Part shown: in pieces, positions 19,637-22,466 of the stretch
Numbering within the stretch: position 1 is the stretch's first letter
Layout: every line of letters starts with the position of its first letter
Source: a virus
Length of the DNA: 22,466 bases
Strand: one strand, 5' to 3'
Virus record (IMG/VR): IMGVR_UViG_3300043015_003012
Coordinates: 1-22,466 of that record
Notes under the pieces: generated by a model
What the model was told of the DNA's origin: nothing
The model's input: only the letters and a program-made list of their open reading frames with translations
The model's database searches: none
Program-made: the position numbers and the translations under genes

Positions 19637-19800
19637 CTGTTGTTCACAGCGACGACATGGGCGACGGCTTTCTGCTGGAGCAAATCGAGAACGACAAGGG
19701 AGAGATTTACTACCGCGCCTGCAAGGACAGCATCTGCCGCTACGCGGAAGACGAGTACATCGCCCGCATGTACCTTGAGGGAATGGGCTGGAAACCTTAG
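19633..19800 (+). CDS. Small acidic hypothetical protein (55 aa)
   Basis: The frame starts in the stop of the peptidase gene (ATGA) and ends with TAG at 19798-19800. It encodes MTVVHSDDMGDGFLLEQIEN, then DKGEIYYRACKDSICRYAED, and ends in EGMGWKP. It is acidic, with two cysteines seven positions apart. Coupling to the peptidase gene suggests a shared role, for example a small regulator or accessory subunit, but no family is recognised. Its stop shares four bases (TTAG) with the convergent HNH gene's stop. Confidence 0.7.
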   Translation: MTVVHSDDMGDGFLLEQIENDKGEIYYRACKDSICRYAEDEYIARMYLEGMGWKP

Positions 19801-20117
19801 ACCGCTAAGTCTTCGGTAATCCAGTAGGCGATTGCGATTTCGCGGTCGCGGCTCCAGAACTTCTGGTTGCGGTACCAGTCAATCCAGTCATGGGCTGACT
19901 TGGAGATGTTGCAGGCAAAGCAACAGGCAACAAGGTTTGCCTGGCACGTATGACCACCGCGCATCTTGGGGTGCACGTGGTCGAGAGTTGCGGATCGTCC
20001 CAGATCATTCCCGCAGTAGGCGCAGCAGTGGTCCCAGCTGCTGAGGATGTCTTGGCGAAATTTTTTCTTGGCTTGTTTTTTGCTTAAGTATTCACCACCG
20101 CAGATGTGATGATCCAT
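19797..20117 (-). CDS. HNH endonuclease
   Basis: This 106-residue protein has the full small HNH layout. A zinc-binding CAYCG (Cys32, Cys35) is followed by the catalytic LDHVHPKMRGG (His47), then Asn61 in NLVACCFACNISK with the second zinc pair Cys66 and Cys69. The third position is Asn70, making an H-N-N type active site. Such free-standing HNH proteins in phages are homing endonucleases or, near terminase genes, packaging helpers. Here it sits alone between the lysis region and the replication region, which favours a homing nuclease. It converges with the small gene at 19633 and has its own upstream region shared with the gene at 20215. Confidence 0.88.
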   Translation of the reverse strand: MDHHICGGEYLSKKQAKKKFRQDILSSWDHCCAYCGNDLGRSATLDHVHPKMRGGHTCQANLVACCFACNISKSAHDWIDWYRNQKFWSRDREIAIAYWITEDLAV

Positions 20118-20747: not shown

Positions 20748-21058
20748 TTGTTGTCGGCAGTTTTCTTCCGGTTGGCAGCCGCCACGCTGGGGCTAGTCCG
20801 GGAACGAGCCAGCTTAGGTTTCTTCGCCGTCTGCGGGGGAACGTCTACCCGGCAACCGGGGTAACGATTTTCGGCAAACAGGATTGCCTGCTGAAGCGAC
20901 TCTGCCCGAATCAAATCCCGCATGGCGCCTTGACCGGCAAGCCAGATCTGCAGCTCGAACAGCTGTGCCCGCTCTGCACTGGTGCGCGAGCGACCCTCAC
21001 CGAGACGCTGAGACTTTTCAAATTCTTCCTGCCACTGCAGGACACCGTTTTTCATCAT
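20744..21058 (-). CDS. Hypothetical protein (104 aa)
   Basis: The first part is helical and charged (VLQWQEEFEKSQRLGEGRSR). The middle is LFELQIWLAGQGAMRDLIRA, and LFAENRYPGCRVDVPP closes a possible small domain. The last 25 residues are basic and unstructured (KKPKLARSRTSPSVAAANRK). Two ATGs in a row open the gene; either may be used. It overlaps the genes on both sides by 4 nt. Basic tail and location suggest a nucleic-acid-linked role, but this is only an impression; no family was recognised. Confidence 0.7.
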   Translation of the reverse strand: MMKNGVLQWQEEFEKSQRLGEGRSRTSAERAQLFELQIWLAGQGAMRDLIRAESLQQAILFAENRYPGCRVDVPPQTAKKPKLARSRTSPSVAAANRKKTADNK

Positions 21059-21258
21059 CGGTAAGACGGTTCAGTAACGCTACAAATTGAGATCGGGTTG
21101 GTGGTGCACTGCTGGATGGTGTGAACAGCCTGCACTGCCCGCTCGTACGTAGGCCAGCTGGAGGCATCCTCCTCAATCGAGGTGAGCTGGAGCCCTTGAT
21201 CTGGTCCGAAGATTGCCATGACCCAACGGTCGCTGACTTTGACTGCGTAGCGGGTCAC
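21055..21258 (-). CDS. Small hypothetical protein (67 aa)
   Basis: This protein looks like a single small alpha/beta domain (MTRYAVKVSDRWVMAIFGPD, LTSIEEDASSWPTYERAVQA, VHTIQQCTTNPISICSV). The TYERAVQAVHTI helix following a beta pair recalls other small cyanophage proteins with a strand-helix layout, but no family is named. It is the first gene of a three-gene minus-strand operon (21258 down to 20580) coupled by ATGA overlaps, and it is preceded by the long inverted repeat at 21273-21308. Confidence 0.7.
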   Translation of the reverse strand: MTRYAVKVSDRWVMAIFGPDQGLQLTSIEEDASSWPTYERAVQAVHTIQQCTTNPISICSVTEPSYR

Positions 21259-21272
21259 GGTGGACTACTGTA

Positions 21273-21308
21273 GGAGCCTAGAGATTTTACTTTGAATTTC
21301 TAGGTTCC
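21273..21308. promoter_or_regulatory. Long inverted repeat upstream of the 21258 operon
   Basis: Arms GGAGCCTAGAGATT (21273-21286) and AATTTCTAGGTTCC (21295-21308) match at 12 of 14 positions around TTACTTTG; both mismatches are G-T. The site begins 15 nt upstream of the operon start at 21258 and lies after the end of the gene at 21341. No T run follows on either strand, so an operator is more likely than a terminator. Confidence 0.5.
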
Positions 21309-21340
21309 AGTCGGCTTATTACTGAGTCTCGTGATTCTCT

Positions 21341-21604
21341 TCACTCTTGCGGCTTCTTCTCTTGCTTGGAGCGCAGCCGCCCTTCTACCCGTCGCCGAAC
21401 AGATTCATTCCATTTCTCAACGTCGGCCTCTTCAGCAATTTTGTAAATTTCCGGCATCTCTTGTTGAAGTGCACCATATACATACTCCCGCAGAAGAGCC
21501 GTCACCTTCTTTCCCTGCTTATCGGCGAGGGTCTCAGCCAATTTGTACCGATTGGCATCCAGAAGTAACTGGCAATAAATTTTCGACCCGTGTCTGAGGG
21601 GCAT
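21341..21604 (-). CDS. Ribbon-helix-helix-like DNA-binding protein
   Basis: This 87-residue protein has the order expected of a ribbon-helix-helix repressor: a strand (about 8-16, KIYCQLLLD), a helix (about 18-30, RYKLAETLADKQG) and a second helix (about 33-48, VTALLREYVYGALQQE). A charged helical C terminus follows (EKWNESVRRRVEGRLRSKQE). Such proteins bind DNA as dimers at palindromes with short half-sites. I recall similar proteins in cyanophages. Directly upstream of its start is a strong palindrome (21620-21648), which suggests autoregulation. The fold is inferred from the pattern only. A long helical tail is unusual for a minimal repressor and may mediate oligomerisation. Confidence 0.65.
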   Translation of the reverse strand: MPLRHGSKIYCQLLLDANRYKLAETLADKQGKKVTALLREYVYGALQQEMPEIYKIAEEADVEKWNESVRRRVEGRLRSKQEKKPQE

Positions 21605-21619
21605 GGCTAACGATCTACT

Positions 21620-21648
21620 CTGCTACACAGTAGCATACTGTGTCGCAG
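21620..21648. promoter_or_regulatory. Operator-like palindrome upstream of the ribbon-helix-helix gene
   Basis: CTGCTACACAGTA (21620-21632) and TACTGTGTCGCAG (21636-21648) are inverted arms around GCA with one mismatch; the inner 8 bp match perfectly. The site lies 16-44 nt upstream of the gene start at 21604. No T run follows on either strand, so it is not an intrinsic terminator. TATGCT on the minus strand at its centre could be a -10 box. Confidence 0.6.
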
Positions 21649-21653
21649 TAGTC

Positions 21654-21857: not shown

Positions 21858-22048
21858 AGGTCCAGCACATTTTTAATGGCGACGATGGTGTGTTCCGGGT
21901 AGACGCGCTGCGTGTACGTACGTGCGCCGTACACATCTGGCGCCTCCATAAAGATATTTTCAGTGGCCCCATGCTTTGGCCAGATCGTCACTCGATACTG
22001 GTTGAGCTTGATTGGGTTGTCGGGCGTGGAGCCAACCTTACCTGTCAC
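21854..22048 (-). CDS. Small conserved hypothetical protein (64 aa)
   Basis: The core is YRVTIWPKHGATENIFMEAP, then DVYGARTYTQRVYPEHTIVA, a beta-strand/helix/strand pattern. Similar small proteins with a KHGATE...EAPD.YGAR order are familiar to me from cyanophage genomes, with no known function. It sits directly after the DNA polymerase gene with a 4-nt overlap (ATGA), so it is made from the same transcript and may belong to replication or repair. Confidence 0.75.
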   Translation of the reverse strand: MTGKVGSTPDNPIKLNQYRVTIWPKHGATENIFMEAPDVYGARTYTQRVYPEHTIVAIKNVLDL

Positions 22049-22466
22049 TTTGCCTGATCCCAGCTATCCCCGACGTTAGCTTCGGCGAGAGGCGGAATCT
22101 CACCCAACCACCGCGCTTCGCATTCCTCCATCACGGCTTGCAGCTGGTGCGCCCAGGTTTCAGCGTGCTGTTCTTTTACGAGCAGGATGATCTCGTCATG
22201 CACCACGCCGGCCAAGCGCACCGTATCTTCCCCGTCGGCGTTAAGTAGCGGCCACAGCTTGCTGAGAGTGAGCTTGAGAACTGCTGCACCCGCACCTTGG
22301 ATGGGGGTGTTGCAGCGCGTAGTGAGCTTGTTGTTCTCGCCCGGTAGAAACCGCCGCAATTCCGAGATGCGTATGCGGATAGATGGATTCCCCTTAGCCG
22401 CATCAGCAGCGCGAGCATTGTCGTGCTGCCATTTGGAGATGCCTTGATAAGCAGCGTGGAACTTCC
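22045..22466 (-). CDS. Family A DNA polymerase, C-terminal part (runs off the right edge)
   Basis: The last 139 residues are visible. They start in the fingers/palm (KFHAAYQGISKWQ), continue through RRFLPGENNKLTTRCNTPIQ and GAGAAVLKLTL, and reach motif C, VVHDEIILLV, whose His-Asp-Glu holds the catalytic metal-binding Asp. This is typical of T7-like and Pol I-type phage replicative polymerases. Motifs A and B and any 3'-5' exonuclease lie outside the window. The end overlaps the next gene by 4 nt. The gene shows that phage replication genes lie to the right on the minus strand. Confidence 0.93.
   Translation of the reverse strand, partial: KFHAAYQGISKWQHDNARAADAAKGNPSIRIRISELRRFLPGENNKLTTRCNTPIQGAGAAVLKLTLSKLWPLLNADGEDTVRLAGVVHDEIILLVKEQHAETWAHQLQAVMEECEARWLGEIPPLAEANVGDSWDQAK

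Follow-up and report, generated by a model that had tools for sequence, protein, structure and literature searches.

A small gene on the minus strand of a 22.5-kb virus record (hereafter the window, meaning the whole of the stretch of DNA analysed) is preceded by an inverted repeat, and this raises two questions: whether the repeat belongs to an operator bound by the product of the gene that it precedes, and, if so, how far the control exerted by that product would reach. A preliminary description had read the pair as a ribbon-helix-helix (RHH) protein with its own palindromic operator and, possibly, as the switch for the replication-region transcripts. The virus is an uncultured siphovirus of Synechococcus; of the 102 records in the phage collection that its endolysin matches, all are Synechococcus phages or cyanophages. 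On the minus strand, polA is followed by two small genes, by the gene in question, which we call rhh, and by a few more small genes, with structural genes on the plus strand facing them, and in a near-full-length relative rhh again comes after polA, directly beside the convergent structural module. An HNH endonuclease gene (window 19797-20117, minus strand) lies between the replication and structural modules. Of integration genes, which the phage of a lysogeny-switch repressor would be expected to have, Phage_integrase was found in one of 11 records, which are possibly incomplete. The features discussed below are collected in Table 1.

Table 1. Features of the rhh region, with positions in the window
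Feature	Position	Strand	Remarks
polA, family A DNA polymerase, 3' part, same operon	22045..22464	-	Pfam PF00476, 3.6e-14
Preceding gene, 67 aa	21654..21857	-	stop codon where O1 begins
O1, conserved 40-bp candidate operator element	21614..21653	-	10-49 nt before ATG
O1 dyad 1, TACTG CGACA CAGTA	21636..21650	-	sequence, relatives
O1 dyad 2, CTACTGTGTAGCAGAGTAG	21615..21633	-	TGnTAnnnT extended -10-like match at upstream edge
13-bp inverted repeat of the preliminary description	21620..21648	.	clade-specific; repeat search, shuffles, pairing counts
rhh, 87-aa RHH-like repressor gene (predicted)	21341..21604	-	ATG at 21604; ORF, conserved family, model and Foldseek
O2, second conserved element between rhh and next gene	21262..21330	-	related half-sites (GAGACTCAGT ... 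CTAGGCTCCTACAGTAGTCC); -10-like TAAAAT at 21284-21289
Next gene, 67 aa, GTG start	21055..21258	-	downstream of O2

A repeat search recovered the inverted repeat as it had first been drawn, with arms of 13 nt at 21620-21632 and 21636-21648 that are 92% complementary (12 of 13 pairs, one mismatch) and stand 3 nt apart (spacer GCA), 16-44 nt before the ATG of the 87-aa frame. Within the window it ranks first among the inverted repeats; at least one of equal strength occurs in one third of 60 shuffled windows, at a mean of 0.42 per window. Its core, ACACAGTA-N3-TACTGTGT, occurs once in the window, and a match with up to three mismatches was found in 7 of 100 shuffles. Taken by itself the repeat is therefore modest, and only its place in a 49-nt gap makes it suggestive; what carries it beyond chance is the conservation of the element in relatives. 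Outside the close relatives of the window the exact 13-bp palindrome is absent, and the same 40-bp element takes the form of two adjoining dyads, so that the palindrome represents a two-dyad element as it appears in a single clade and not, as drawn, the general operator.

This element, O1, could be followed through a family of about 150 virus loci from marine and freshwater samples, in which the lowest identity to the window protein is 57%. Present in almost all homologues, it starts 48-49 nt before the ATG in 100 of 100 loci and ends about 10 nt before it. Its mean conservation over 91 non-redundant loci is 1.64 bits per column, and 21 of its 40 columns exceed 1.9 bits and are practically invariant; the corresponding means are 0.46 bits for the 8 nt that directly precede the ATG and 0.80 for the third codon positions of rhh. 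A scan of the 2.9 million viral contigs of IMG/VR that used the DNA of O1 only returned 112 new loci, every one of which has rhh directly downstream, at an O1-to-rhh gap of 17-18 nt in the 80 newly fetched loci in which it was measured. Within single records the element is just as exclusive: a 40-column weight matrix detects a single site in each of seven records, the window among them, where it reaches 59-69 bits while every other position stays at -11 or below (the eighth record, G004, a single-site variant, has no weight-matrix site), and in 24 related phage records the exact pattern of the first dyad occurs at rhh only. Conservation upstream of homologues, the check that the preliminary description had named, thus speaks in its favour, and the claim that the gene has an operator of its own is supported, in the form of a conserved, repeated candidate operator at a fixed distance directly before it.

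The element also varies. A single site is kept in L039-L043, and a changed element is found in L143, L189, L196, L215, L274 and their relatives, several of them with an HNH gene directly upstream. In L025, L196, L215, L216 and L220 an AP2/HNH-like gene directly precedes rhh, and another short conserved element stands in place of the operator; in the HNH-upstream loci this is ACWSTGTAGACTACTG-like and still contains a CTACTG half-site. L130, L132, L137, L142, L146 and L150 combine a conserved operator with an upstream gene whose C-terminus has diverged strongly; the idea that this gene had been replaced proved wrong, a diverged homologue being present.

The family-wide sites within O1, TANTG-nGWCn-CANTA and CTAYTGTGTAGSAGACTAG, are pseudo-palindromic, and their centres lie 18 bp apart. 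Column shuffling gave p = 0.002 for the 18-bp direct repeat and p = 0.014 for the inverted one. In dyad 1, four of the seven pairs show complementary bases in 26-27 of 27 sequences. No compensatory covariation was found in the two dyads, so the dyad symmetry rests on invariant positions. The core of dyad 1 reads CGACA in the clade of the window and its reverse complement TGTCG in most others, with TGACG and AGACA also occurring, a change of orientation that a symmetric binder would tolerate. The extended -10 pattern TGnTAnnnT occurs at one place inside O1 in 90 of 100 copies and could mark the place where RNA polymerase is blocked, although its conservation could be explained by the operator alone; no good -35 box was found in O1. 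The same pattern gives some weight to a different reading, in which O1 is the site of another protein, be it a host regulator, RNA polymerase or a phage replication or late factor, and merely the promoter of rhh, with the RHH protein not the binder, since the conservation of O1 by itself leaves its binder unnamed. The site of a general factor would, however, be expected at other genes, whereas the dyad is unique to rhh in the 24 records and in all loci found by DNA only; two dyads exceed the needs of a promoter, and RHH genes are commonly preceded by such sites. We consider this reading unlikely.

Searches of Pfam and PHROGs with the 87-aa protein gave no family match, the weak hits there, among them an RNA polymerase inhibitor, being at chance level; in NCBIfam the RHH-type RelB family was matched weakly (best E 0.049), and hhalign comparisons with single Arc and CopG sequences were likewise weak, with no clear sequence match. 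A first structure model, built on 25 sequences, was mediocre and its PDB matches were mixed; among the matches that VIA-align listed, histone folds appeared at Z no higher than 4 and RHH chains did not appear. A second model, from a deeper alignment of 34 more diverse sequences, places helices at residues 17-29, 34-49 and 51-82 of the monomer in helix-turn-helix geometry. Foldseek ranks 1-9 against the PDB are all RHH proteins (CopASO, PutA52, Arc, omega), with probabilities up to 0.92 and weak E-values of 0.6 or worse, a common outcome with domains of this small size. For ranks 1-8 the rmsd is 0.8-1.9 Å over 34-38 residues, and two helices superpose on those of Arc, PutA52 and CopASO. Residues 8-15, where the ribbon strand is expected, have low pLDDT in the monomer models, as would be expected where a sheet forms only in the dimer. 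All 34 sequences share K8, Y10 and Q12, every second residue of this presumed ribbon stretch, as would befit residues that face the DNA. Membership of the RHH superfamily, as first proposed, is accordingly supported and likely, on the strength of a fold likeness without significant sequence match.

No homologue was found in deposited phages or plasmids, and the single family match in bacterial genomes, a 3.5-kb contig in a Verrucomicrobiota MAG (L090) that bears both the rhh gene and the operator, is probably a stray, misbinned phage contig. None of the collections searched contains a cultured or annotated representative of the family. Even cyanophage KBS-S-2A (Synechococcus WH7803), the closest deposited relative of the tail module of the window, which has a similar layout and a host-specificity protein 66% identical over 81%, was found to have neither an rhh homologue nor an O1 dyad. 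What is new here is thus the protein family and its candidate operator; their kind, the autoregulated RHH repressor, is known. The Arc repressor of phage P22 is, like the rhh product, a phage-encoded protein with an RHH domain, and its structures 1bdv, 1myl and 1baz match the model at an rmsd of 0.8-0.9 Å over 35-36 residues; Arc, of 53 aa, lacks the long C-terminal helix of the 87-aa protein, has an operator different from O1 and gives no clear sequence match.

The RHH antitoxins (CopASO, RelB, ParD) share the RHH domain of the model, 6iya being its best Foldseek match, and autoregulation is usual among them. One could accordingly see in the 87-aa protein the antitoxin of a type II toxin-antitoxin pair, with a neighbouring 67-aa gene as the toxin and an antitoxin-like autoregulation, and the weak RelB-family matches, the rank of CopASO as the best fold match and a conserved C-terminal helix that could bind a partner all lean this way. 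RHH antitoxins have a toxin partner, however, and none was recognised beside rhh, the neighbouring genes matching none of the toxin or defence families searched; moreover, rhh and the next gene are kept apart by O2, a conserved element in its own right, and an HNH gene may come between rhh and the gene before it. This makes a toxin-antitoxin pair very unlikely. That the inverted repeat acts instead in the mRNA, forming ahead of the start codon a hairpin through which rhh translation or mRNA decay is controlled, is hardly credible: 12 of 13 pairs could indeed form 15-16 nt before the ATG in the clade of the window, but a conserved RNA hairpin was rejected, since RNAalifold predicts no pair and no consensus structure, pairing amounts to 78.1% of cells versus 77.6% in shuffles, and three of the pairs are broken in one third to two thirds of sequences.

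The closest studied counterpart of the rhh product is TrcR (All0854) of Anabaena PCC 7120, a small cyanobacterial RHH autorepressor whose conserved motif, ATACTACACTTGTATTAC, lies about 25-50 nt before its own start and overlaps the -10 box (PMC10272220), an arrangement like that proposed for rhh. The two differ in that TrcR has several targets (PMC10272220), whereas the exact dyad of rhh is found at one gene only, and in the letters of their operators. TrcR homologues have been reported in two Nodularia phages (PMC10272220), and in one of the two, vB_NpeS-2AV2, the best of 1067 frames for our family profile is an RHH-looking protein (E 0.13). We regard this match, which compares the families indirectly and without significant sequence match, as a lead and no proof of kinship with TrcR. 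It is quite improbable, in our estimate, that rhh represents a phage branch of the TrcR lineage that would act on its own and the distal gene through O1 and O2, some 0.3 kb apart and possibly looped, and on TrcR-controlled promoters of the host besides; if it did, the virus would be adjusting the translation control of its host.

O2 lies between rhh and the next gene and is composed of GAGACTCAGT, CATAGTCTG, a -10-like box and CTAGnCTTACACAGTA; its block in the window is GGACTACTGTAGGAGCCTAG, at 21262-21281. In loci found by the DNA pattern of O2 alone, rhh precedes in 64 of 64, and the spacing between the blocks is exactly 25 nt in 63. O1 and O2 have a TACTGTGTA core in common, in inverted orientation, with a modest p = 0.017 in the profile comparison, and within single genomes the two mostly show no significant likeness. 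One clade has a near-consensus sigma-70 promoter in O2 (TTCATA-17-TATAAT), which was discarded as a general feature, the score of the whole set being not much above that of shuffles. Putative action of the same RHH protein at O2 is plausible.

Taken together, these observations make it very probable, on sequence and model grounds, that the rhh product is an RHH repressor which is negatively autoregulated through O1. Adjoining RHH dimers would bind the two pseudo-palindromic sites of the 40-bp element, in the short gap before their own gene, and would thereby block a promoter inside O1, so that the level of the protein is kept low and steady; at O2, where related half-sites surround the -10-like box, the same protein would probably restrain a short distal transcript. 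The reading that the evidence supports is control of its own gene and possibly, via O2, of the next. Regulation in cyanobacterial siphoviruses has been little studied, and the locus offers, besides a possible connection with the host regulator TrcR, a precise, testable pair of an 87-aa protein and a 40-bp operator, conserved across marine and freshwater viruses, which, if confirmed, would provide a compact repressor-operator part for cyanobacteria and an example of an early-region gene that limits itself.

A wider reach, and with it the proposed switch for replication-region transcripts, is unsupported, because the exact dyad occurs only at rhh in the 24 records and the gene itself, which follows polA, is close to the far end of the operon, beside the convergent structural genes; in the records scanned, neither polA nor any other replication gene was found to be preceded by a site. 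A regulon was likewise looked for and set aside: no exact dyad occurs elsewhere in these 24 phage records, and the sites with one mismatch are scattered, without a common neighbour gene. Two local occurrences may be recorded, neither of them conserved between records: an intergenic array, GTTACAGTGTGACACATTACTAAGTGTAACAGTA, that resembles the dyads near 40280 of G002 (the record of L019), and a dyad with one mismatch just before a gene at 40830-40844 of G008 (the record of L056).
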